From Clostridia bacterium (GTDB lineage: Bacteria; Bacillota_A; Clostridia; Peptostreptococcales; JAAYPU01), in assembly GCA_022360735.1 (NCBI GenBank), contig JAKSCF010000249.1, positions 1 through 11,017 of the forward strand: 11,017 bases of DNA. The letters are read 5' to 3'. The notes beneath the pieces were generated by a model, which did not search any database, was not told the origin of the DNA, and was given only the letters and a program-made list of their open reading frames with translations. Shown here one piece after another: positions 1-11,017 of the stretch. Made by a program: the position numbers and the translations under genes. How positions within the stretch are numbered: the stretch's first letter is position 1; each line of letters begins with the position of its first letter.

Positions 1-289
1 CTACACCCAGTTGGCAGATTTATTGAAATCAGGCGTCCCCTTGCTCCGTTCGCTTGAGTTATTGCATAAACAGTCAACCAACCCCGCTTTAAAGTTGGTT
101 CTGGAAGAAGTTCGTGGTGAAGTGGCCGACGGCACGCGTTTGGCCGTTGCCATGGGACAACACCCCAAAGTTTTTTCCGAGCTTGCCGTCAGTATGGTCC
201 GCGCTGGAGAGGAAGGTAGTTTCCTCGAAGACGTTCTCAAACGCATAGCCAGCTTTACAGACCATCAGGAAGAGTTGAAAAACCGTGTT
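1..289 (+). CDS. GspF/PilC-type secretion membrane protein, internal fragment, probably foreign to this contig
   Basis: The frame is open from base 2 and enters from outside the window; the TTG at base 11 is an internal leucine, not a start. The encoded segment (YTQLADLLKSGVPLLRSLEL near the left end, then VRAGEEGSFLEDVLKRIASF) matches the cytoplasmic four-helix domain of the type II secretion F / type IV pilus PilC family. These polytopic inner-membrane proteins scaffold pseudopilus or pilus assembly. The repeat unit ends at about the residues HQEELKNRV, where family members would go on into a transmembrane helix; here the protein instead becomes ExbD-like. Hand-counted G+C is about 51% over bases 1-280, against about 34% for bases 301-410, and codons favour C/G third positions unlike every other gene here. 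The wording resembles Planctomycetes GspF proteins from memory, which is only an impression. No secretion genes follow. Confidence 0.75.
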
Positions 290-412
290 GCATTAGAAAA
301 CTTTGGAAGAGAATATGATAAACTTATTTCTAAAGATAGGATTAAAGCGATAAATAAGGCTGTTCCTAAACGTGTATCTGAAGCAGAACCAGAAGATAAA
401 GGAGGGAAATAA
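290..412 (+). CDS. exbD: Biopolymer transporter ExbD (first copy), C-terminal fragment
   Basis: About 40 residues, from roughly ALENFGREYDKLISKDR to a TAA stop at 410-412, look like the C-terminus of the first ExbD of Bacteroidota exbB-exbD-exbD operons, including the closing ISEAEP-like motif (here VSEAEPED). ExbD is the inner-membrane partner of ExbB in the proton-driven complex that energises TonB-dependent outer-membrane transport or related Tol-like functions. The N-terminal transmembrane helix and most of the periplasmic domain are missing because the frame is joined at about 284-298 to an unrelated GspF segment. The stop lies one base before the ATG of the next exbD, so the two are evidently one operon. 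The identification rests on a short conserved tail plus context, and the left boundary given is approximate. Confidence 0.7.
   Translation, partial: ALENFGREYDKLISKDRIKAINKAVPKRVSEAEPEDKGGK
398..405 (+). promoter_or_regulatory. Shine-Dalgarno site for the second exbD
   Basis: AAAGGAGG lies 8 bases before the ATG at 414, a near-perfect anti-16S match. It is notable because most other starts in this window have only A-rich leaders, as is usual in Bacteroidota. It supports the ATG at 414 over the in-frame ATG at 372, which would lie inside the preceding coding region. It also overlaps the end of the upstream exbD, which fits coupled translation. Confidence 0.7.
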
Positions 413-413
413 T

Positions 414-878
414 ATGTCAAGATTTAAACAAAAAGGCGGAAAAGAAGTGCCGGCAATTAGTACTTCTTCATTACCAGACATCATTTTCATGCTACTTTTC
501 TTCTTCATGGTAACTACTACCATGCGTCAGGCTGATGTGTTGGTTAGAAATAACTTACCACAGGCAACAGATGTACAAAAGCTTGAAAAGAAATCATTGG
601 TTAGTTTTGTTTATGTTGGTCCTCCAACCAATAAAAAATTTGGTACAGAATCTCGTATCCAGTTAAATGATCGCTTTGCTACTGTTGAAGATATTCAAGA
701 GTTTATCTTTAAAGAAAGAGAAGCGAGAAATGAGGCAGACAAGAAAAAACTAATAACCTCTTTAAAGGTTGACAAAGAAACTAAAATGGGTGTTGTAACA
801 GACATCAAACAGGAACTTCGTCAAGCGAACGCACTAAAAGTTGCTTACTCAAGTAACAAAAAAACAAACCTAAAATAG
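414..878 (+). CDS. exbD: Biopolymer transporter ExbD (second copy)
   Basis: A complete 154-residue ExbD/TolR-family protein. The N-terminal cytoplasmic tail is basic (MSRFKQKGGKEVPAI). A single transmembrane helix follows at about residues 22-37 and begins with the conserved proton-path aspartate D22 (SLPDIIFMLLFF). The rest is a periplasmic domain with the usual KVD segment followed by a conserved helix (residues ~122-138). With ExbB it forms the proton channel that energises TonB-type outer-membrane uptake. The tandem of two non-identical ExbDs is the normal Bacteroidota arrangement. The gene starts one base after the stop of the first exbD, has a strong ribosome-binding site, and is followed by a clear terminator, so it is the last gene of the operon. 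The partner exbB would lie upstream, beyond the chimeric join, and is not seen. Confidence 0.88.
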   Translation: MSRFKQKGGKEVPAISTSSLPDIIFMLLFFFMVTTTMRQADVLVRNNLPQATDVQKLEKKSLVSFVYVGPPTNKKFGTESRIQLNDRFATVEDIQEFIFKEREARNEADKKKLITSLKVDKETKMGVVTDIKQELRQANALKVAYSSNKKTNLK

Positions 879-896
879 CAATTATTTTATATAGAG

Positions 897-927
897 AAAA
901 AGGGAACCAATTTGGTTCCCTTTTTTT
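897..927 (+). terminator. Rho-independent terminator after exbD, probably bidirectional
   Basis: An 8-bp stem AGGGAACC (901-908) / GGTTCCCT (914-921) with a 5-base loop is followed by a run of T to 927. Flanking A residues at 897-900 extend the stem against the T-run. On the minus strand the same hairpin ends in five T, so it could also stop the convergent CPBP protease gene ending at 963. Confidence 0.9.
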
Positions 928-962
928 GATACATTGAGTTTTCCTGTGTTTTAAAAATAGTT

Positions 963-1895
963 TTAGACCTGAAAACGACTTTTCTTTTGTTTATATATTA
1001 GGTAGCATAATGATAGGGTTAAAAGAATACTTATAATGACTCCAATAGTATTATCTGATTGAACAAGAATTTCCTTCTCTCCGGTTAATAACTCTTCGGA
1101 GTTAGTAGCATAAAATATGGCTAAAACGGATCCGTTATTTACAAAATGAAGGATGATGGGTACCCATAAACTTCCGGTCCAGACAAAACTATACCCTAGT
1201 ATTAAACCTAATGCAAAACGTGGTAAAAATCCATAAAACTGTAAATGCAGGGCACTAAATAAAAAGGATGATAAGATGACAGCCAAATGAATATGTCCTG
1301 ACCATTTTTTGAAAAAACGTATCAAAACTCCTCTGAAAAGTAATTCTTCTCCTATTGCCGGAATTACAGCAATTAAAAGCATGTTAACAATGATAGTCCC
1401 AAATGAATTTGCTTGTATAAATATTTTGGTGAGTTTCATAGCATCACCTTCTTTTGTTTTCATCCAGTTTTCGATGCCGGATAAAAATTCCGGAAGAACC
1501 ATTTTGTGATTTATCACACCAAGCCATGCAATAAACGGAACACTTACAAATATTAACAGAATTCCCAGGAATATTTGATTTATGTTTATCCGAACGTTTA
1601 GTTTTAGATAATCCATCACTCTACGGTGGACCAGAAATGCAAAAAGTAAAGGAGGGAAAAAGAAAAATCCTAATTGATTAATTAATTGCACATATTTTAA
1701 AAAGCCAATGGATGTAGGATCATCATAGTTTGTAATATTCCCAACTTCCTTTACCAGGTCATTTCCCCATATCGGGAGTGCAAGTGCTAACCCAAATATG
1801 TTAAAAAATAATATGGATAACACAATGATTAATAGCAAACTTAAGAATTGTATTCGATATGTTGATCTTCCCAGATAAGCTTCTTTTCCAAACAT
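963..1895 (-). CDS. CPBP-family intramembrane metalloprotease (CAAX protease / Abi family)
   Basis: A 310-residue polytopic membrane protein with about eight hydrophobic segments (roughly 15-40, 72-90, 106-126, 163-182, 203-220, 225-239, 242-259, 283-301). All family motifs are present and in order: EELLFR with E183, E184 and R188; FSALH with F213 and H217; and HFVNN with H250 and N254. These are the presumed metal-binding and catalytic residues, so the protein should be active. The family includes eukaryotic Rce1 prenyl-protein proteases and bacterial proteins linked to bacteriocin self-immunity or membrane-protein processing. Nothing nearby shows its substrate, and no bacteriocin gene is visible. 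It is divergent from dusB across a 61-base gap and converges on the exbD operon. I found no good promoter for it. Confidence 0.9.
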   Translation of the reverse strand: MFGKEAYLGRSTYRIQFLSLLLIIVLSILFFNIFGLALALPIWGNDLVKEVGNITNYDDPTSIGFLKYVQLINQLGFFFFPPLLFAFLVHRRVMDYLKLNVRININQIFLGILLIFVSVPFIAWLGVINHKMVLPEFLSGIENWMKTKEGDAMKLTKIFIQANSFGTIIVNMLLIAVIPAIGEELLFRGVLIRFFKKWSGHIHLAVILSSFLFSALHLQFYGFLPRFALGLILGYSFVWTGSLWVPIILHFVNNGSVLAIFYATNSEELLTGEKEILVQSDNTIGVIISILLTLSLCYLIYKQKKSRFQV

Positions 1896-1950
1896 TTCTA
1901 AAAATTAAAGAATTAAAAGGTAAAATTAATAATTTTGCATTTCTAAAAAT
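1893..1950. repeat. 13-bp direct repeat in the CPBP/dusB divergent gap
   Basis: CATTTCTAAAAAT occurs at 1893-1905 and again at 1938-1950, 45 bases apart. The first copy contains the complement of the CPBP start codon; the second lies just before the dusB start. Bases after each copy are also loosely alike (AAAAGGTAAA versus AAAATGGTAAA), so a small local duplication is possible. Function unknown; chance is not excluded in such AT-rich DNA. Confidence 0.5.
1930..1937 (+). promoter_or_regulatory. Possible -7 element for dusB
   Basis: TAATTTTG fits the Bacteroidota -7 consensus TAnnTTTG and would start transcription about 13 bases before the dusB ATG. No TTG is present at the expected -33 distance, so the match is only half of a promoter. 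Confidence 0.4.
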
Positions 1951-1956
1951 GCTAAA

Positions 1957-2940
1957 ATGGTAAAGATAGATCATATTGAAGTTGGAGAATTCCCTATTTT
2001 GCTTGCACCTATGGAAGATGTATCAGATCCTCCATTCCGTTATGTTTGTAAAATGATGGGAGCAGATATCATGTATACGGAGTTTATTTCTTCTGAAGGA
2101 TTAATACGTGATGCTGCTAAAAGTGTGAAGAAATTGGATTTTACCGAGTTTGAGCGCCCTATAGGAATTCAGATCTTTGGCCATAATATTGAATCGATGA
2201 TCAAAGCTGCACAATATGCAGAACAGGCAAATCCGGATATTATAGATATTAATTACGGATGTCCGGTTAGAAAAGTGGTTGCAAAAGGGGCTGGTTCCGG
2301 GATTTTGAATGATATTCCCAAAATGGTTAAGATGACTGAAGCAGTGGTGAAAGCTACCAAACTTCCCGTTACTGTGAAAACCAGATTGGGTTATGATAAT
2401 GAGCATAAGGAAATAGTTGATATTGCCGAGCGTTTGCAGGATGTAGGTATTAAAGCTTTAACCATTCATGGCCGTACCAGAACCATGCGTCCCAGGGAAA
2501 AAGCTGAATGGGAATTAATAGGGGAGGTTAAGAAAAACCAAAGAATGCATATTCCAATTTTTGGCAATGGAGATGTATTTGGTGCACAAAGTGCAAAATA
2601 TTTTAAAGATAATTTTGGGGTAGATGGATTAATGGTTGCCCGTGGTTCTTATGGAAATCCCTGGATCTTTAAAGAGATCAAACATTATTTAAATACCGGT
2701 GAATTATTAGAAAAGCCCAATATTAAAGAACGCATACAAATTTGCAAAATCCACTTTAAAAAATCAGTTGAATGGAAAGGTGAACGCACAGGACTGCTGG
2801 AAATGCGAAAACACTATTCCGATTACTTTAAAGGATATGTAAATTTCAAACCTTATCGTATGCAATTAGTACATCTTGAATCTTATGAAGAAATTCTTAA
2901 AGTATTGGATGAGGTTGAAAAAGTTTATGCCGAAGATTAA
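1957..2940 (+). CDS. dusB: tRNA-dihydrouridine synthase (DusB type)
   Basis: A 327-residue FMN enzyme that reduces specific uridines in the D-loop of tRNA to dihydrouridine with NAD(P)H. The N-terminal TIM barrel starts with PILLAPMEDVSDPPFR (FMN site). The catalytic cysteine is C102 in INYGCPVRKVVAKGAG. Other flavin and tRNA contacts expected in the family are visible: K141 in TVKTRLG, H171 in IHGRTR, GNGDV at 203-207 and ARGSYGNPW at 228-236. The C-terminal helical tRNA-binding domain carries MRKHYSDYFKG at 283-293. Length and motif spacing are normal for DusB. The ATG at 1957 gives the conserved N-terminus. The stop codon overlaps that of the convergent HAD gene in a shared TTAA. In many bacteria dusB sits beside fis; that is not the case here. 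Confidence 0.95.
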   Translation: MVKIDHIEVGEFPILLAPMEDVSDPPFRYVCKMMGADIMYTEFISSEGLIRDAAKSVKKLDFTEFERPIGIQIFGHNIESMIKAAQYAEQANPDIIDINYGCPVRKVVAKGAGSGILNDIPKMVKMTEAVVKATKLPVTVKTRLGYDNEHKEIVDIAERLQDVGIKALTIHGRTRTMRPREKAEWELIGEVKKNQRMHIPIFGNGDVFGAQSAKYFKDNFGVDGLMVARGSYGNPWIFKEIKHYLNTGELLEKPNIKERIQICKIHFKKSVEWKGERTGLLEMRKHYSDYFKGYVNFKPYRMQLVHLESYEEILKVLDEVEKVYAED

Positions 2941-3593
2941 AGTTTTTTTAATACAGAATCTTTTAAAGCTCCTTTTTTCTCGAAAAGGTCAACCATGTCT
3001 TCTTTCATTAAATCCAGGTAATAAGCGCTTAGACCTGCTTTTTCTGCCGGTTCAATGTTTTGTATTGAATCATCAATAAAAAGACTTTCTTCTGCTTTAA
3101 TTGCCCCATCCTTTAATACATATTCATAAGCAGCCAAATCCGGTTTACGGCATTTTATATTAAAAGAATAATAAGCTTTCAAAAACAGATCATCAAATGA
3201 ATCATACCCGGTAATATTCTGAAATTCTTTTAAGAATACATTATAATGAATAATATTAGAGTTGCTAAGTAAATAGATATTATAATTTGATTTTATTTTC
3301 TCCAAAAGCTCAAGCCTTTCTTTTCGAAATCCTGTAAGAATTGAATTCCAGGCATAATCGATTTGATCATCACTCAGGTGGGCATATTCATGTGATTTTA
3401 ACCTTTTACGAAATTCAGCAGGACTTATCAGTCCGCATTCCAGATTTTCAAATAAATGATTTTGCACAGCCTTTGAATACATCATATCAAATTGGTCAAT
3501 CCCTATTTCTTTAAATGTTTGCACAGGCTTTTCATAGTCTATATCGTAGATTACACCTCCAAAGTCAAATATGATATTGCGAATTGATTTCAT
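2937..3593 (-). CDS. HAD-superfamily hydrolase (HAD-IA, YihX-like)
   Basis: A 218-residue haloacid-dehalogenase-fold protein, probably a small-molecule phosphatase. Motif I is IIFDFGGVIYDID with nucleophile D10. Motif II is LLSNSN around S110. Motif III is the lysine in KCRKPD at about K150. Motif IV is LFIDDS with D174/D175. An alpha-helical cap of roughly residues 16-90 lies between motifs I and II, as in the HAD-IA subclass. The usual second aspartate of motif I (DxD) is replaced by glycine (D10-F-G12-G-V), a variant known from the YihX-like branch, where glucose-1-phosphate is one reported substrate in E. coli. The substrate here cannot be read from the sequence. The gene converges on dusB with a 4-base overlap and no terminator between them, and is divergent from the tRNA gene. 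Confidence 0.88.
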   Translation of the reverse strand: MKSIRNIIFDFGGVIYDIDYEKPVQTFKEIGIDQFDMMYSKAVQNHLFENLECGLISPAEFRKRLKSHEYAHLSDDQIDYAWNSILTGFRKERLELLEKIKSNYNIYLLSNSNIIHYNVFLKEFQNITGYDSFDDLFLKAYYSFNIKCRKPDLAAYEYVLKDGAIKAEESLFIDDSIQNIEPAEKAGLSAYYLDLMKEDMVDLFEKKGALKDSVLKKL

Positions 3594-3613
3594 GAAAATA
3601 ATTCTATAAAAAC

Positions 3614-3645
3614 TTGAAATAATAGCGCAAAATTATATAAATTTG
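3614..3645 (+). promoter_or_regulatory. Promoter of the tRNA gene (Bacteroidota type)
   Basis: TTG at 3614-3616 and TAAATTTG at 3638-3645, with 21 bases between, fit the Bacteroidota primary-sigma consensus TTG-N(17-23)-TAnnTTTG. Transcription would start near 3652, leaving a leader of about 40 bases before the tRNA. Confidence 0.75.
3628..3635 (-). promoter_or_regulatory. Possible -7 element for the HAD hydrolase gene
   Basis: On the minus strand this reads TAATTTTG, matching TAnnTTTG, about 35 bases before the HAD start codon. A TTG at the proper -33 distance is missing. Only two bases separate it from the -7 element of the divergent tRNA promoter. Confidence 0.4.
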
Positions 3646-3692
3646 CAACCACTTTTTGAAAACAAAAAAGAATTCTTCTTTTTTATTTTTCA

Positions 3693-3766
3693 GGGCCTAT
3701 AGCTCAGCTGGTTAGAGTAGTTGACTCATAATCAATTGGTCCCTGGTTCGAGTCCAGGTGGGCCCA
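3693..3766 (+). tRNA. tRNA with anticodon CAU, probably tRNA-Ile2 (lysidine type)
   Basis: A full cloverleaf folds by hand. The acceptor stem is GGGCCTA (3693-3699) with TGGGCCC (3759-3765). The D-stem is GCTC/GAGT with a final G-U pair. The anticodon stem GTTGA/TCAAT holds loop CTCATAA with CAT at 3727-3729. The T-stem CCTGG/CCAGG has loop TTCGAGT. The discriminator is A3766; CCA is not encoded (CAA follows). A CAU anticodon may mean elongator Met, initiator Met or Ile2. Initiator is unlikely because base pair 1-72 is a normal G-C and three G-C pairs do not close the anticodon stem. C4-G69 and C5-G68, the GACTCATAATC loop region and the TTGGTC variable loop resemble E. coli ileX, whose CAU is converted by TilS to lysidine to read AUA. 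Met remains possible. Confidence 0.9.
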
Positions 3767-3772
3767 CAAGTC

Positions 3773-3813
3773 AAAGCGGATTATCATTTATGAGAATGGT
3801 TTTCCGCTTTTTT
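3773..3813 (+). terminator. Rho-independent terminator after the tRNA
   Basis: Stem AAAGCGGA (3773-3780) / TCCGCTTT (3803-3810) with a 22-base loop continues into a T-run to 3813. It lies 6 bases after the tRNA 3' end, as expected for a single-gene tRNA transcript. Confidence 0.75.
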
Positions 3814-3816
3814 ATA

Positions 3817-3883
3817 TATCAACTACCATATATCATCTATCATATAAGAAAAAACTTTGATCGTTTTCACATGGTAGTTGATA
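3817..3883. repeat. 13-bp perfect inverted repeat downstream of the tRNA
   Basis: TATCAACTACCAT (3817-3829) is exactly complementary in reverse to ATGGTAGTTGATA (3871-3883), with 41 bases between. Further partial symmetry lies outside and inside: TATCATCTATCAT at 3831-3843 resembles the reverse complement of ATGATCTATGTGATAT at 3892-3907. The TATCAAC-type heptamer resembles short dispersed intergenic repeats I recall from Bacteroidota genomes, often near four-helix-bundle genes; that is memory and not tested. It lies between the tRNA terminator and the probable gene remnant. Confidence 0.7.
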
Positions 3884-3906
3884 GTTGCTAAATGATCTAT
3901 GTGATA

Positions 3907-4080
3907 TTATTTTTTTACCTGTTGTTTAACAGTATTAATTGTTTTATAGAATATTGCTGTTAATTGATCACATTCATCTATTAAAGTGGCAACATTATAT
4001 TCTGTTTTTTTCTTATTGAATAGTAATAGTAAAGATATTCTTTTATTTATTAATACCAGAAAATCAAATTTGTCTATCAC
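3907..4080 (-). pseudogene. Probable 3' remnant of a four-helix-bundle (23S rRNA IVS-like) gene
   Basis: An open frame of 57 residues on the minus strand begins at a GTG and ends in TAA, too short to be obvious. It reads VIDKFDFLVLINKRISLLLL and then continues FNKKKTEYNVATLIDECDQL before a lysine-rich tail. Two amphipathic helices ending in KQQVKK resemble the C-terminus of the four-helix-bundle proteins (PF05635 / TIGR02436) found in 23S rRNA intervening sequences and scattered through Bacteroidota chromosomes. No ATG start is seen, and the frame reads back only through a terminator hairpin to a stop at 4111-4113, so the N-terminal half is gone. Flanking inverted repeats and a tRNA neighbour fit a past insertion. 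The family call is tentative; it could be a real micro-ORF or non-coding. Confidence 0.4.
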
Positions 4081-4081
4081 T

Positions 4082-4112
4082 AAAAAAGCGAAGCCTTTTG
4101 AGCTACGCTTTT
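4082..4112 (-). terminator. Rho-independent terminator of fhs
   Basis: AAAAGCG (4084-4090) pairs with CGCTTTT (4106-4112); inside, after one A-A mismatch, AGC (4092-4094) pairs with GCT (4102-4104). Read on the minus strand the stem is followed by six T (4087-4082). It lies 43 bases beyond the fhs stop codon. Confidence 0.75.
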
Positions 4113-4155
4113 ATTAATCAAATAAATATTTGAATTATAAATACACCGGAATGAT

Positions 4156-5826
4156 TTAAAATAATCCCGTAATATTTCCATCTTTATCAATATCAATCAC
4201 CTCAGCAGAGGGAGTGCTTGGCAATCCGGGCATTCTCATGATTGTTCCGGCAATAGGAACCACAAAACCTGCTCCGGATGCAATTTCTATTTCCCTGATA
4301 TTGATTATGAAGTTACGTGGACGGCCTTTTAATTCGGGTTTGTCTGAAAGCGATTTTTGTGTTTTCGCAATACAAACTGCTAAACCATCCAGTCCTAATC
4401 TGGTAATTTTCTGAAGGTCTTGTCTTGCTTTTAAAGAATATTCAACATCATCCGCTCCATACATTTTTTGCGCAATGATTTTGATTTTTTCTTCTATCGG
4501 CATGCTATGTTTATAAATAGGCTGGAAAGAAGTAGGTGAACTTCCATTCGTTGCATCTACAACCATTTCAGCTAATTCAGTAGTCCCTTCACCACCTTTT
4601 TCCCACCCTTCTACAAGAGACACTTTAACACCTAATTTATCACAATGTTTTTTCAGGATTTCAATTTCTGTATCTGAATCGGAAGTAAATCTATTGATTG
4701 CAACGATCGGGTTAAATCCAAATGCACGCATATTTTCAACATGTTTATCCAGATTTTCCAATCCCTTTACTAGTGCAACAATATCAGGTTCACAAAGATC
4801 CTTTAATTTAGCACCTCCATGATATTTTAAAGCCCGGATCGTTGCAACTAATACAACAGCTCTTGGAGCCAGATTACCGTATTGACACTTAATATCGAAA
4901 AACTTTTCAGCACCCAAATCAGAAGCAAATCCTGCTTCAGTAACTACGTATTCCGATAAAGACATACCCATTTTTGTTGCAATAATAGTATTGGTTCCCT
5001 GAGCAATATTTGCAAATGGGCCACCATGAATAATAGCCGGAGTTCCTTCTAAAGTTTGGACAAGATTCGGTTTAATGGCGTCTTTTAATACTACTGCCAT
5101 AGCCCCATGAGCATTTAGGTCTCTGGCGTAAATAGGTTTGTCGTCATAGGTGAAACCTACAAAAATATTTCCCAGTTTTTCTTTTAAATCCATCAAATCG
5201 TTTGCAAGGCATAAAGTTGACATTACTTCTGATGCCGCCGTAATATTAAAACCTGTTTCTCTGGGAACACCTTGTTTAGTACCACCTAATCCAATAACAA
5301 TATCTCTTAATGAGCGCTCATTCATATCCATTACCCTTTTCCAGGTAACTGTTCTTGGATCTAAACCAAGGCTTCTTTTCTTATCCTGAATATTATTGTC
5401 AATTAATGCTGATAATAAATTATGTGCTTTTTCAACTGCTGATAAATCTCCTGTAAAATGAAGGTTGATATCTTCCATAGGAATTACCTGCGAGTATCCA
5501 CCACCTGCAGCTCCACCTTTAATTCCAAATACCGGCCCCAGTGATGGTTCACGCAATACAACAGTGGTTTGCTTGCCTATTTTATTCATTCCCTGGGACA
5601 GACTGATAGAAGTTGTTGTTTTCCCTTCACCGGGAGGGGTTGGGGTAATAGCTGTCACTAATATCAGTTTACTTTTTTTTATCTTTTTCTCATCAATTAG
5701 TTTTAACGGGAGTTTGGCTTTATAATGACCATACTGCTCTAAATTTTCACTATCAATTTTCAACAGGGCTGCAATGTCTGTAATTGGCTTAATTTCCGCT
5801 GCTCTTGCAATATCTATGTCTTTCAT
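4156..5826 (-). CDS. fhs: Formate-tetrahydrofolate ligase (10-formyl-THF synthetase)
   Basis: A 556-residue enzyme, the usual length, that joins formate to tetrahydrofolate using ATP to make 10-formyl-THF, the cytoplasmic one-carbon donor for purine and formyl-Met synthesis. The ATP-binding P-loop is PTPPGEGKTTTSIS at about residues 62-75. The family signature REPSLGPVFGIKGGAAGGGY spans 92-111, followed by DINLHFTGD (119-127). Other conserved blocks are visible: HGGPFANIAQGTNT, EAGFASDLGAEKFFDIKC, the VAINRF segment and the C-terminal PGLPSTPSAEVIDID. No frameshift or missing motif is seen. folD and other folate genes are not adjacent. It is transcribed alone from its own promoter (5852-5882), with a very short leader and no riboswitch, and ends at a terminator. 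The divergent LysR regulator is a candidate controller. Confidence 0.97.
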   Translation of the reverse strand: MKDIDIARAAEIKPITDIAALLKIDSENLEQYGHYKAKLPLKLIDEKKIKKSKLILVTAITPTPPGEGKTTTSISLSQGMNKIGKQTTVVLREPSLGPVFGIKGGAAGGGYSQVIPMEDINLHFTGDLSAVEKAHNLLSALIDNNIQDKKRSLGLDPRTVTWKRVMDMNERSLRDIVIGLGGTKQGVPRETGFNITAASEVMSTLCLANDLMDLKEKLGNIFVGFTYDDKPIYARDLNAHGAMAVVLKDAIKPNLVQTLEGTPAIIHGGPFANIAQGTNTIIATKMGMSLSEYVVTEAGFASDLGAEKFFDIKCQYGNLAPRAVVLVATIRALKYHGGAKLKDLCEPDIVALVKGLENLDKHVENMRAFGFNPIVAINRFTSDSDTEIEILKKHCDKLGVKVSLVEGWEKGGEGTTELAEMVVDATNGSSPTSFQPIYKHSMPIEEKIKIIAQKMYGADDVEYSLKARQDLQKITRLGLDGLAVCIAKTQKSLSDKPELKGRPRNFIINIREIEIASGAGFVVPIAGTIMRMPGLPSTPSAEVIDIDKDGNITGLF

Positions 5827-5851
5827 TTAAAAATATTTTTCTAATCTTTTG

Positions 5852-5882
5852 CAAAATTATAATTAGTTTTGATATTCAACAA
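5852..5882 (-). promoter_or_regulatory. Promoter of fhs (Bacteroidota type)
   Basis: On the minus strand, TTG (5882-5880) and TAATTTTG (5859-5852) are separated by 20 bases, matching TTG-N(17-23)-TAnnTTTG. Transcription should start near 5845, about 19 bases before the ATG. The -7 element sits only 4 bases from a mirrored -7-like element for the LysR gene. Confidence 0.75.
5864..5871 (+). promoter_or_regulatory. Possible -7 element for the LysR-type gene
   Basis: TAGTTTTG matches TAnnTTTG and would give a leader of about 30 bases. No TTG occurs at the right -33 distance, so it may need an activator or be a chance match. Together with the fhs -7 element it forms an imperfect dyad CAAAA-N10-TTTTG (5852-5871). 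Confidence 0.4.
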
Positions 5883-5909
5883 GACTACTTTTATCATTCA
5901 TTAATAATC

Positions 5910-6791
5910 ATGAGTAATCAAATAGAACTTAGACATTTTAAATATTTTCTGACTTTAGCAGAAGATTTGCATTTTAGAAAAGCAGCTGAAAGACTGTTTA
6001 TTTCGCAACCCGGTTTAAGCCGACAGATAAAGCATATGGAAGAAAATCTTGGGGTAGCTTTATTTGAGAGACATAATCGAAAAGTTGAGTTAACTATAGC
6101 AGGTAAATATTTATACAAAGAGATAAAGAGTAATTTAAAAAGGTTAGATAGTATTATTGATTATACACGTTTGTTGAGTGAGGGAATAGACGGAAAAGTA
6201 AAACTAGGATATGTTGGTTCAGCTATGCAGAAAGTAATTCCGGACTTGCTACTTCTGTTTAAAAAAGAATATCCAAAGGTTCATTTTAGTTTGAGTGAAA
6301 TGGACAATAATAAACAAATACAGGCCTTACTTGATCAGGAAATAGATGTTGGTTTTGTCAGGCAGGAACGTGTGCCTCGTGGGCTAAGTGTGAAGCCGGT
6401 ATTGAAAGAGACTTTCTCCTTAGTATTACCTAAAGCACATAAGCTTAATGAAGCAAACTTTAGGAATTTATCACAGTTGAAAGATGAACATTTCATATTT
6501 TTTGATTCTTCTTTTGGAAAGTCATCTTATGAGAAAATACTTCAGATTTTTGATGATAGTGGCTTTACTCCTTTATATTCGCACTATACTGTAAATGCCA
6601 GTTCAATATTCAGGTTGGTAGAAAATAATTTTGGATTCTCAATTGTTCCTACTTCTCTTAAATATGGATACGATATGGATATAAAATTTATTGAATTGGA
6701 TAAGATCAGGCAAAGAACAACTTTGAAAATTGCCTGGAATAAGACAAATACAAATCCGGTTCTGGAAAATGTTTTAAAAGTTTATGAATAA
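5910..6791 (+). CDS. LysR-family transcriptional regulator
   Basis: A 293-residue LysR-type regulator. The N-terminal winged helix-turn-helix covers residues ~5-64: IELRHFKYFLTLAEDLHFRK, then AAERLFISQPGLSRQIKHME (recognition helix around 33-45), then LGVALFERHNRKVELTIAG. A linker helix follows (65-92), then a periplasmic-binding-protein-like effector domain in two lobes (~95-290), with KVKLGYVGSA starting lobe one and DVGFVRQ closing its first half. Such proteins act as tetramers that bend DNA and usually control a divergent neighbour and themselves. The neighbour here is fhs, 83 bases away, so fhs regulation is a reasonable guess but not shown. The effector is unknown. The start chosen at 5910 gives the conserved MxxxELRxF beginning; a longer in-frame extension to 5805 would run through the fhs start and promoter and is not credible. 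Confidence 0.93.
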   Translation: MSNQIELRHFKYFLTLAEDLHFRKAAERLFISQPGLSRQIKHMEENLGVALFERHNRKVELTIAGKYLYKEIKSNLKRLDSIIDYTRLLSEGIDGKVKLGYVGSAMQKVIPDLLLLFKKEYPKVHFSLSEMDNNKQIQALLDQEIDVGFVRQERVPRGLSVKPVLKETFSLVLPKAHKLNEANFRNLSQLKDEHFIFFDSSFGKSSYEKILQIFDDSGFTPLYSHYTVNASSIFRLVENNFGFSIVPTSLKYGYDMDIKFIELDKIRQRTTLKIAWNKTNTNPVLENVLKVYE

Positions 6792-6846
6792 TGATATGAC
6801 TTCGAATAGCTCTAATCACCTTTCCTCTAGGCTTTTTTGTTAAGAA

Positions 6847-6887
6847 AAGTTAAGCTCTGGGGGCACAGGAGTTATTTTAGTTAACTT
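6847..6887 (+). repeat. Hairpin-forming inverted repeat in the LysR/barrel-gene gap
   Basis: AAGTTAA (6847-6853) and TTAACTT (6881-6887) are complementary. Inside, CTCTG (6855-6859) pairs with CAGGAG (6866-6871) with one bulged G and the loop GGGGCA. The inner part is markedly G-rich for this genome. No T-run follows, so it is not a standard terminator. It could be an RNA structure in the LysR 3' region or a protein site; function unknown. Confidence 0.35.
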
Positions 6888-6911
6888 CGCTTTAAATGGG
6901 ATCATTCTTTC

Positions 6912-6943
6912 TTGAGATTCTAAAAAGTAATATTGTATATTTG
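6912..6943 (+). promoter_or_regulatory. Promoter of the outer-membrane protein gene (Bacteroidota type)
   Basis: TTG at 6912-6914 and TATATTTG at 6936-6943, spaced by 21 bases, match the Bacteroidota consensus closely. The predicted start near 6950 leaves a leader of about 14 bases before the ATG at 6964. Confidence 0.8.
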
Positions 6944-6963
6944 CAGTTAAAATTAATAATTAG

Positions 6964-7638
6964 ATGAGAAAAATATTTATTGTATTGGGCTTAGCTTTAT
7001 TAACAAGCGGAGTTTTTGCACAAGATTTTACTACCAAAGCAGGAAATAAAATTGATTTTGGATTTGATTTATTTTATGATATCTGGGGAAACAAGCCGGA
7101 AGGAATGCAGATTCATGGATTGAGCTTTGGTAATAGCATATATGCAATGTATGAAAAGGAAATCTGGACTAAAGATGGCAGGTTCAGACTGGGAATGGGG
7201 GTTGGAGTTACTACTCATAAGCTTTCTACTAATACAACGATTAAAGACCCTTATGAAACTCCGATTACTTTTGTGCCAATACATGAAGATATAGAATTTG
7301 ATAAAAGTAAATTTGTTGTTAACTATTTAGATTTTCCTATTGAAATTCGTTATAAAACACCTAGCAAGTTTCGCTTAGCTATTGGAGCTAAATTGGGATT
7401 CCGTTTGAATAATCATACTACATATAAAGGAGAAGAACTTACAAATAGCGGAATTTACCAAGTTGTAAAGTATAAAAAGATTAAAGATATAGAGGGAATC
7501 AGATTTGGTACTTCTTTGAAGTTCGGATATAAATGGTTAAATTTTAATGTATTCTACTCTCTTACAAAATTGTTTAGCGGAGATAAAGGACCTGAACTTT
7601 ATCCAATTTCTATAGGTATTACCTTTAATCCTTTCTAA
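6964..7638 (+). CDS. Exported outer-membrane beta-barrel protein
   Basis: A 224-residue protein with a clear Sec signal peptide: MRKIF, a hydrophobic core VLGLALLTSG, and cleavage at VFA|Q after residue 19. The mature part alternates polar and aromatic/hydrophobic residues in short strands with turns. Examples are FGFDLFYDIW, FRLGMGVGVTTH, LDFPIEIRYK, FRLAIGAKLGFRL, IRFGTSLKFGYKW and a last strand PISIGITFNPF ending in phenylalanine, as outer-membrane barrels usually do. This resembles the PorT/OmpW-sized beta-barrel families of Bacteroidota with roughly 8-10 strands. No TonB plug, SusD or lipoprotein motif is present. A specific function cannot be assigned. It has its own strong promoter and converges on the PAP2-like gene with only 11 bases between. 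Confidence 0.8.
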   Translation: MRKIFIVLGLALLTSGVFAQDFTTKAGNKIDFGFDLFYDIWGNKPEGMQIHGLSFGNSIYAMYEKEIWTKDGRFRLGMGVGVTTHKLSTNTTIKDPYETPITFVPIHEDIEFDKSKFVVNYLDFPIEIRYKTPSKFRLAIGAKLGFRLNNHTTYKGEELTNSGIYQVVKYKKIKDIEGIRFGTSLKFGYKWLNFNVFYSLTKLFSGDKGPELYPISIGITFNPF

Positions 7639-7649
7639 GGATTATTCTA

Positions 7650-8261
7650 TTAAAAATATAAAGCAAGAATTAACATAAGTGCTATACCGGATAAAAGTCC
7701 GGTATATACTTGTGCCTGTGTATGTGCTTTTAACTTTAACCTGGCAAAACCTGTTAGTCCGGCACCAAAGATTACGAAAAATAAATAAAGAGGGCTGTCC
7801 ATTAACGACATAAGTGTTAAGCCCAATGTCATTCCTAAAAATGCTCCCATTGCCAGCATGTGAATACTTATTTTCCATTTTAGGTTGACAATAAATGCAA
7901 ATACGACCAGAGAAGCACCTCCTAAAGCAAAGTATTTAAATACCGGAGAGATCTGGATATTGTTTAATAAAAAATACAAAAAGAAATTGAATATCATCAT
8001 TATTAGGAAAGGAATATTTCTTTCTTTTCTTTCATACATTTGAAATGAGCCAATAACCTTCCAGTACTTAAGCATTAGCATGATACTCAATGGCAAAGCA
8101 CAGGTTAATACAAATACGATAAGTAATAATCTGATTTTTGCCGGCATAGGTAAAACCATTGCATAATAAGCCTTTTGGCTAAAGAGTAATATAAAGGCAT
8201 ATGTAGGTATTAATATCGGATGTAAGACATACGAAACAATATTAGCTAATCGTGTTTCCAT
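7650..8261 (-). CDS. PAP2-like integral membrane protein
   Basis: A 203-residue protein with about six or seven transmembrane segments (roughly 10-28, 42-64, 84-102, 108-126, 133-152, 157-172, 186-203). Polar conserved-looking stretches resemble the type 2 phosphatidic acid phosphatase motifs: ERKERNIPF (77-85) in the place of KxxxxxxRP, KISIHM (130-135) in the place of PSGH, and AR-x5-H-x3-Q (R174, H180, Q184) in the place of SR-x5-H-x3-D. The critical histidines H134 and H180 are kept, but the motifs are altered. The family removes phosphate from lipid phosphates such as PA or undecaprenyl-PP at the membrane. Whether this one is active is uncertain. It starts 10 bases after the rpoN stop and is very likely cotranscribed with it. 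Confidence 0.65.
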   Translation of the reverse strand: METRLANIVSYVLHPILIPTYAFILLFSQKAYYAMVLPMPAKIRLLLIVFVLTCALPLSIMLMLKYWKVIGSFQMYERKERNIPFLIMMIFNFFLYFLLNNIQISPVFKYFALGGASLVVFAFIVNLKWKISIHMLAMGAFLGMTLGLTLMSLMDSPLYLFFVIFGAGLTGFARLKLKAHTQAQVYTGLLSGIALMLILALYF

Positions 8262-8271
8262 AATTTAAATA

Positions 8272-9723
8272 TTATAATTCCTTGCGAAGACGTGCAACAG
8301 GAATGCTTAATTGCTCACGGTACTTAGCTACGGTTCTGCGGGCAATCGAATAACCTTTTTCCTTCAGAATATTGGTTAACTGTTCGTCTGTAAGTGGTTT
8401 GCTCTTATCTTCTGCATCTATACAGTCGCTCAGGATTTTCTTTATTTCACGCGTAGAAACTTCCTCTCCACTTTCAGTAGTCATGGATTCGGAGAAAAAG
8501 CTTTTAAGTAAAAAAGTGCCAAAAGGTGTTTGAACATACTTGCTATTAGCAACTCTTGAAATTGTTGAAATATCCAGATTAACGATTTCTGCAATATCTT
8601 TCAGAATCATTGGTTTCAGATTTGTTTCATCTCCGGTGAGGAAATAATCAAACTGATAATTCATAATTGCATTCATCGTATAGTATAAAGTATTCTGACG
8701 TTGTTTGATGGCATCTATAAACCACTTGGCAGAATCTATTTTTTGTTTTACAAACATAAAGGCATCTTTTTGCTGTTTGGTTTTTTTACCTTCAGCATAA
8801 GATTCCAGCATATCTGTATAAGTTCTGCTTAAATGTAATTCGGGAGTATTTTTAGAGTTCAGGCTTAACTCCAAACTCCCGTTATTATTATGAATGATAA
8901 AATCAGGAATTACGTAATGGTTCGTTTTAGCCGATTCACTTAATGAATTTCCCGGTTTAGGGTTTAATTTAAGTATCTCATCAATAGCCTCTTTTAATTC
9001 GTCTTCTGTAGAATCCGAACGCTTGATGATTTTCTCATAATGCTTTTTGGTAAATTCATTAAAATAACGATCAATGATCAGCATTGCCAGTTTAATACTA
9101 GGCTTTTCCTGATCTTCTTTTCTAAGTTGAATCAGTAAACATTCCTGTAGATTTCTGGCACCCACACCTGCAGGATCAAACTCCTGAATGATTGAAAGGA
9201 TCTTTAAAATTTCATCTTTATCTGTAGAAATGTTTTGGGTAAATGCCAGGTCATCTACCATCGCTTCTATTCCTCGCTGTAAATAACCACTATCATCAAG
9301 ATTCCCAATAATGGTTAGTGCGATGTCATATTCTTTTTCGCTTAGCTTTCTTAATCCGAGTTGATTAATTAATAAATCATGGAAAGTGGCACCACTTACA
9401 AAGGGAATTTCTTTTCTTTCATCATCCGAGCTGTAATTATTCGTAGAAAGCTTATAAGAAGGTATATCATCTTCATCCAGGTAATCCGCTAAATCAAATT
9501 CATCATCCTTGTTGTCATATTCTTCGGTTTCAGCCTGTTCATTGTCAAAATCATCTTCTACCGTTTCAATATCCCCTGATTCTTCCAAAGCAGGATTTTC
9601 TTCAATTTCCTGTTTTATCCTTTGTTCCAGAGCTACTGATGGAATCTGCAACAATTTCATCAGCAAAATTTGCTGAGGAGAAAGTTTTTGTAAAAGCTTT
9701 TGTTGCAGTTTTTGATTTAACAT
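8272..9723 (-). CDS. rpoN: RNA polymerase sigma-54 factor
   Basis: A complete 483-residue sigma-54. Region I (1-47) is glutamine/leucine rich (QKLQQKLLQKLSPQQILLMK) and contacts AAA+ activators. Region II (48-104) is strongly acidic. The core-binding domain contains GNLDDSGYL (140-148) and EFDPAGVGARNLQECL (181-196). A helix-turn-helix lies at about 374-393 (LKDIAEIVNLDISTISRVAN), and the diagnostic RpoN box ARRTVAKYRE is at 461-470, reading the -24 promoter element. Length and order are normal. No enhancer-binding activator and no convincing GG/GC -24/-12 promoter was seen in the window, so its regulon is elsewhere. It lies 75 bases after asnS and 10 bases before the PAP2-like gene, all on one strand. 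Confidence 0.97.
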   Translation of the reverse strand: MLNQKLQQKLLQKLSPQQILLMKLLQIPSVALEQRIKQEIEENPALEESGDIETVEDDFDNEQAETEEYDNKDDEFDLADYLDEDDIPSYKLSTNNYSSDDERKEIPFVSGATFHDLLINQLGLRKLSEKEYDIALTIIGNLDDSGYLQRGIEAMVDDLAFTQNISTDKDEILKILSIIQEFDPAGVGARNLQECLLIQLRKEDQEKPSIKLAMLIIDRYFNEFTKKHYEKIIKRSDSTEDELKEAIDEILKLNPKPGNSLSESAKTNHYVIPDFIIHNNNGSLELSLNSKNTPELHLSRTYTDMLESYAEGKKTKQQKDAFMFVKQKIDSAKWFIDAIKQRQNTLYYTMNAIMNYQFDYFLTGDETNLKPMILKDIAEIVNLDISTISRVANSKYVQTPFGTFLLKSFFSESMTTESGEEVSTREIKKILSDCIDAEDKSKPLTDEQLTNILKEKGYSIARRTVAKYREQLSIPVARLRKEL

Positions 9724-9774
9724 ATAACACCTAATTAGTTTCTTAAATAAGAGCTAATCTATGATACTAAGATA

Positions 9775-9782
9775 CAAATTTA
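9775..9782 (-). promoter_or_regulatory. Possible -7 element for rpoN
   Basis: On the minus strand this reads TAAATTTG, matching TAnnTTTG, about 50 bases before the rpoN start. No TTG is found at the expected -33 spacing, so rpoN may also be read from asnS. Confidence 0.4.
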
Positions 9783-9798
9783 CCTATTAAATTTACGA

Positions 9799-11017
9799 CT
9801 AAAATTCTGCATTTTGAGGGGTACGGGGGAATGGAATTACATCCCTGATATTTCCCATTCCGGTGATGAATAACATGAGGCGTTCAAACCCAAGTCCATA
9901 TCCCGCATGAGGTACAGAGCCAAATTTTCTGGTTTCCAGAAACCACCATAATTCTTCTTCAGGAATATCTAATTCTTTGATTCTTGCATAAAGCACATCA
10001 TAATTTTCTTCACGTTGAGAACCCCCGATAATTTCACCTATTTGCGGGAATAATACATCCATAGCCCTTACTGTTTTTCCATCAGGATTTTGCTTCATAT
10101 AGAATGCTTTTATTTCTTTAGGATAGTCAGTTAGAATCACAGGCTTTTTGAAGTGCTTCTCTACAAGATATCTTTCATGTTCAGACTGAAGATCTATTCC
10201 AAAGCCTTCAATAATATACTGGAATTTTTTCTTCTTATTTGGCTTGGAGTTCTTTAGAATTTCAATGGCTTCGCTATAAGTTAATCTTACAAAATCATTT
10301 TCAACTACGAACTTAAGTTTTTCAATAAGTTCCATGGTACGATCTTCAGCTTTTTTGTTCTTTTCTTCATCCTGAAGTCTTTTACTTAAGAATTGAAGAT
10401 CTTCCATACAGTTATCTAAAGCATATTGAACAACATATTTCAAATGCTCTTCTGCCAGGTCCATATTATCATGAATATCATGGAAGGCTACTTCCGGTTC
10501 AAGCATCCAGAACTCAGCCAGATGACGGGAAGTATTGGAATTTTCTGCCCGGAATGTAGGGCCAAAAGTATAAACTTGTGACATCCCTAAAGCAGCTAAC
10601 TCTGCTTCCAACTGGCCAGATACCGTAAGATTGGTTGCTTTGCCAAAAAAATCTTCTTTATAATTTACTGAACCATCTTCATTTAAAGGTGGGTTCTTAG
10701 GATCCAGGGTAGTTACTCTGAACATTTCCCCTGCACCTTCAGCATCAGATCCTGTAATAATAGGAGAGTGAATGTTAAAATAACCTTTATCATTAAAGAA
10801 CTTATGATTTGCAAATATCATTGCATGTCTTACCCTTGTAATTGCACCAAAAGTATTGGTGCGAAAACGCAAGTGTGCAATTTCTCTTAAAAACTCCAAA
10901 GAATGCTTTTTAGGCTGGAGTGGATAATGATCAGGATGTGCCTCTCCTAAAAGGTCAACATTGGTAGCTTTGATCTCTACTTTTTGTCCTGAACCTTGTG
11001 ATTTAACAATAATTCCA
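9799..11017 (-). CDS. asnS: Asparagine-tRNA ligase (AsnRS), 5' end outside the window
   Basis: About 405 residues of a class IIb aminoacyl-tRNA synthetase that charges tRNA-Asn with asparagine. The frame stays open to the right edge; the TTG at 10897-10899 is an internal leucine, since the codons before it (ending [17 protein letters not shown]) continue the N-terminal OB-fold anticodon-binding domain and its hinge. Motif 1 is around [20 protein letters not shown]. Motif 2 is [25 protein letters not shown], near 10490-10554. Motif 3 is GYGLGFERL, near 9878-9903. FRAENSNT and the absence of aspartate-specific blocks favour AsnRS over AspRS. Roughly the first 70 residues are missing. A direct AsnRS implies asparagine is charged without the amidotransferase route. 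rpoN follows on the same strand. Confidence 0.95.

Follow-up and report, generated by a model that had tools for sequence, protein, structure and literature searches.

The window analysed here, an 11,017-base stretch that is apparently a whole contig, opens with a hybrid reading frame (2-412, forward strand) that starts at the contig edge and encodes 136 amino acid residues, in which an internal piece of a planctomycete GspF is joined to the C-terminus of a Bacteroidota ExbD. The join is almost certainly a library or assembly chimera at the contig end, and the fusion protein that it seems to encode is, with the same confidence, not real. Misassembly or a library chimera near a contig end was the original prediction, and it is borne out by sides that belong to two phyla, by a native exbD1 that is intact elsewhere, and by a junction that was not seen elsewhere in the listed matches. 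The one contig listed for the protein encoded across the seam (P0001) measures 11,017 bases, exactly as long as the window, and the seam is 272-289 bases away from its end; the features of the window are given in Table 1.

Table 1. Features of the window at and beyond the GspF-ExbD join
Feature	Coordinates	Strand	Remarks
Foreign internal gspF piece (first T2SSF domain), Gimesia-like	2-289	+	T2SSF E 4e-22 when searched alone; open at the contig edge
Seam, codons for ELKNRV	272-289	+	Same frame in both parents; break point probably inside
C-terminal piece of native exbD1	290-412	+	40 codons and stop; 47 matching residues including the shared ones
Intact native exbD2	414-878	+	PF02472 (ExbD) E 1.5e-13; collinear in the nearest genome, G001
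Ordinary genes collinear with G001	963-11016		Rce1-like protease, Dus, HAD hydrolase, formate-THF ligase, LysR regulator
Further ordinary genes collinear with G001	within 963-11016		Beta-barrel protein, 203-residue protein without Pfam match, sigma-54
Class II (D, K, N) tRNA synthetase	within 963-11016		Also collinear with G001; cut by the right contig edge

Pfam analysis of the hybrid frame reveals a T2SSF domain at residues 2-98 (E 3e-22), and the NCBIfam GspF model (TIGR02120) aligns its positions 71-165 of 401 with residues 3-97. Against the curated full-length cut-off of that model (424 bits) the frame scores 92.8 bits, because it contains only a fragment of GspF. The last 40 codons (290-412), when searched alone, matched no family in Pfam or NCBIfam, and neither these nor the whole 2-412 frame matched ExbD (PF02472) at E values up to 1. 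The N-terminal transmembrane helix and the periplasmic domain of ExbD are absent from the frame.

The left side is characterized as planctomycete. Genome contigs were scanned with the residues of 2-280; 80 of the 253 relatives were retained, and the best five loci (L033-L037), three of them titled Gimesia sp. and the others Planctomycetaceae and Planctomycetota, exhibited 92-96% protein identity, the value for 2-289 and Gimesia sp. SAT87 (L033) being 96%. At the DNA level these five are 77.9-80.9% identical over 284-289 aligned bases, and the alignments stop at window positions 282, 285, 288, 288, and 290. An in-register comparison with L034 gives 21-26 matches per block of 30 bases through base 300 and then 8 of 30. 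The gspF frame is intact in three planctomycete loci, where it runs for 407-411 codons from stop to stop. In L033, L035, and L037 the protein reads EELKNRVVGAM, the VGAMIYP portion continuing into a hydrophobic helix that is missing from the window. The piece thus resembles Gimesia-type GspF/PilC (PF00482, TIGR02120), with 2-289 corresponding to model positions 71-164 of 401, but differs in being internal, since the N-terminus falls outside the contig and nothing that follows ELKNRV is retained. Two further records carry a GspF that resembles the window piece less closely: L048, titled Caldilineaceae (73% identical), which may be mis-binned, and L079, titled Candidatus Kuenenia, itself a planctomycete (70%).

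Base composition changes at the same place. Windows 1-200 and 101-300 each have a G+C content of 51.5%, as against 50.3% for 2-289 and 34% for 301-500, so that the GspF/PilC segment of about 51% G+C that had been predicted for bases 1 to about 289 is confirmed in both family and composition. The abundance of codons ending in C or G on this side was likewise correctly noted: third-position G+C (GC3) of 2-289 is 53%, as against a mean of 27.7% and a maximum of 38.5% in 227 overlapping 96-codon windows from the ten other genes. The left piece is therefore outside the composition range of the remaining window.

The right side is native. From base 270 onward, a 1,900-base query matches the nearest genome, G001, at 93% over all of its remaining length; alignments differ in whether the similarity starts at 270 or at 297. 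Window 270-11017 as a whole is collinear with G001 at 93-95% DNA identity, apart from indels at approximately 3767-4034, and it is this collinearity that shows the right contig end to be native. At the corresponding place G001 possesses an intact cluster of exbB (PF01618, E 1e-28), a small putative membrane-protein gene, exbD1 (190 residues, PF02472 E 3e-18), and exbD2. The last of these starts one base after the exbD1 stop, and the spacing is identical in the window. This agrees with the earlier view that the next gene is a normal second exbD and the right side native.

A second intact ExbD1 of 190 residues (P0121) comes from a separate 849-base contig. Its last 47 residues are identical to window residues 90-136 at 45 positions, which identifies the tail as that of the first ExbD/TolR protein (PF02472) of a Bacteroidota exbB-x-exbD1-exbD2 cluster; against the C-terminus of the G001 protein the tail is 85% identical. 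The Pfam ExbD domain of P0121 spans residues 3-142, and the tail, which lacks some 144 residues of ExbD1, differs from the intact protein in retaining none of that domain or of its transmembrane helix. NCBIfam yielded only weak matches, below its cut-offs, for the intact ExbD1 proteins, which Pfam assigns to ExbD. Among 60 relatives, 53 showed some ExbD1 match; in 39 it was full length (query residues 1-3 to 186-190), and those beyond the 39 were split or short. Named relatives include Mariniphaga sp. (74% identical), Bacteroidales bacterium, and Bacteroidetes bacterium; Mariniphaga is placed by the NCBI taxonomy in the Marinilabiliales of the Bacteroidota, and the phylum of the right side is therefore Bacteroidota.

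The original prediction of a Bacteroidota ExbD C-terminus of about 34% G+C beginning near base 290 thus stands as to the tail, but the seam itself lies slightly farther left. The native ExbD1 reads KELKNRV-ALENF (in P0121 the sequence at the seam is KELKNRVALENF) and the planctomycete GspF EELKNRV-VGAM. The hexapeptide ELKNRV, encoded by window bases 272-289, is common to both parents and is read by both in an identical frame; to judge from these alignments, the break point most likely falls inside it. The frame was indeed kept across the join, as had been remarked, but the explanation offered, chance, needs qualification, as the break is not at an arbitrary point: the frame is kept because it falls where both parents code ELKNRV in one frame. 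Another claim, that a helix of each protein is missing exactly at the seam, holds for GspF, whose next helix is lost, but not for ExbD1, in which the helix (judged by eye) is N-terminal and so well away from the seam.

The extent of shared DNA at the join was compared in the 80 planctomycete loci, the Bacteroidota side being represented by the P0121 protein. The longest exact word within window 261-300 was 14 bases in two of the 80 loci, 13 bases in seven, and shorter than 13 in the remaining 71; in the five nearest loci, which are relatives and not the parent strains' own DNA, it was 11-13 bases.

The junction itself was found once. Used as a protein query, the 136-residue frame gave 204 hits from candidates restricted to 0.55-1.75 times the query length, and among the 120 listed only the window's own protein (P0001) carries the junction and covers 100% of the query, the next best covering 80%. 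Ten protein matches that were fetched continue as GspF, diverge, or stop near the seam. In the order to which G001 belongs, 147 of 295 genomes possess at least one match to the frame; the listed matches are C-termini of ExbD, nearly all in frames of approximately 190-230 residues, or lone weak GspF proteins (26-33% identity), and none unites both halves. The one oddity among them is a 1,028-residue frame in G284, which matches query residues 24-111 weakly, at E 6e-4. A protein search with the GspF piece alone found no match in 59 of the 60 relatives and a single one, 34% identical, in G053. A genuine fusion would be expected to recur, its domains in the same order, in at least one other genome; among the listed matches that order occurs in the window's own protein alone. 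Recurrence of the junction in related genomes, which would have spoken against a chimera, is not seen among the matches listed for those 295.

In summary of the evidence that bears on origin, separate searches of the two halves, as had been suggested, lead to Gimesia-type Planctomycetota on one side and Bacteroidota on the other, the native arrangement is uninterrupted in close relatives (G001 and P0121), and the junction is without an independent copy among the listed matches (120 of 204 protein hits; those listed for the 295 genomes). That the sides belong to two phyla, that a sharp seam sits close to a contig end, that the native gene is intact in two further sequences, and that the junction was encountered a single time together make a chimera by far the likeliest explanation. 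Against it may be set the preservation of the frame, which a real fusion would also show, and the presence in this Bacteroidota order of GspF-type genes of its own, albeit dissimilar ones. We infer that the window is of metagenome origin, that both parents were in one sample, and that the two were joined in vitro or in silico and not in a cell. A Gimesia-like fragment, or reads from one, would have become attached to a Bacteroidota contig at its left end, within the ELKNRV stretch, the planctomycete donor presumably coming from the same sample. The joining may have occurred through template switching or ligation in the library or amplification steps, or through an assembler following a shared short word; the assembly would then have extended some 270-290 bases into foreign sequence before ending. 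The genuine gene here would be a normal exbD1 of approximately 190 codons, with exbD2 one base later. The result resembles an interspecies chimeric metagenome contig, in which reads from two different genomes meet at a single point, as judged here from sequence. Chimeric contigs are described in one paper on metagenome assembly (PMC7881036) as a documented error, commoner at low to intermediate species coverage; our literature search on library chimeras with microhomology found nothing on that topic.

A real event in the cell would produce the same frame. On this account Gimesia-like gspF DNA was integrated into the exbD1 of one strain through illegitimate recombination within the roughly 18 bases that code for the same six residues in both parents, leaving exbD1 truncated and creating an in-frame GspF-ExbD hybrid without the ExbD membrane helix. 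Foreign DNA is known to be integrated into bacterial genomes through short homology, and both the open frame across the seam and the ELKNRV common to the two parents are what such an event would leave. It would, however, have deprived ExbD1, which is full length in most of the relatives noted above, of its transmembrane helix and its entire Pfam domain, and the foreign DNA would still have its foreign composition and a near-Gimesia protein sequence. The solitary occurrence of the junction among the listed matches and the position of the seam at the very edge of the contig also argue against it, and we regard an event of this kind as very improbable.

G001 possesses a GspF/PilC-type gene of its own, which encodes 384 amino acid residues, is A+T-rich, and is located near the end of contig 14 (L115 113-1267, reverse strand). 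A profile search for PF00482 in six genomes of the G001 genus found the domain in G001 alone, three of the other five being less than 90% complete; the same search was positive in 13 of 14 control genomes. This gene was rejected as the source of the window segment, because its G+C content is 33% and it shows no significant pairwise match to that segment (20% identity over 87 residues, E 1.0). That the window simply holds a native Bacteroidota GspF/PilC gene beside exbD, with a merely local shift in composition, has next to no probability: the order does contain weak relatives (26-34% identity) and G001 its gene on another contig, but the window segment is 96% identical to Gimesia and has no significant match to that gene, and the gene to the left of exbD2 in G001 is exbD1.

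To return to the chimera, the protein collection lists the hybrid (P0001) as a separate, single-member entry that bears a precomputed T2SSF domain, and this entry may therefore wrongly suggest planctomycete-type secretion genes in a Bacteroidota lineage, or a new fusion family. The warning in the original prediction against treating the 'fusion protein' as new biology was well placed, the junction occurring only in the window's own protein among the listed matches, and no GspF-ExbD fusion protein should be put forward as a biological finding. More generally, a kept reading frame is no evidence for a real fusion where the parents happen to share a short peptide at the join.

Elsewhere in the contig, the window and G001 differ directly after a tRNA-Met gene (window 3693-3767 and 3768-4034; L114 5794-6133). 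G001 has approximately 129 extra bases between two copies of the 3′-end of the tRNA, CCAGGTGGGCCCA (L114 5855 and 5984), where the window has one copy; this insert resembles a small remnant at a tRNA attachment site. Farther along, some 130 bases of the window are without a counterpart in G001, and a short piece at these indels is 84% identical to that genome.
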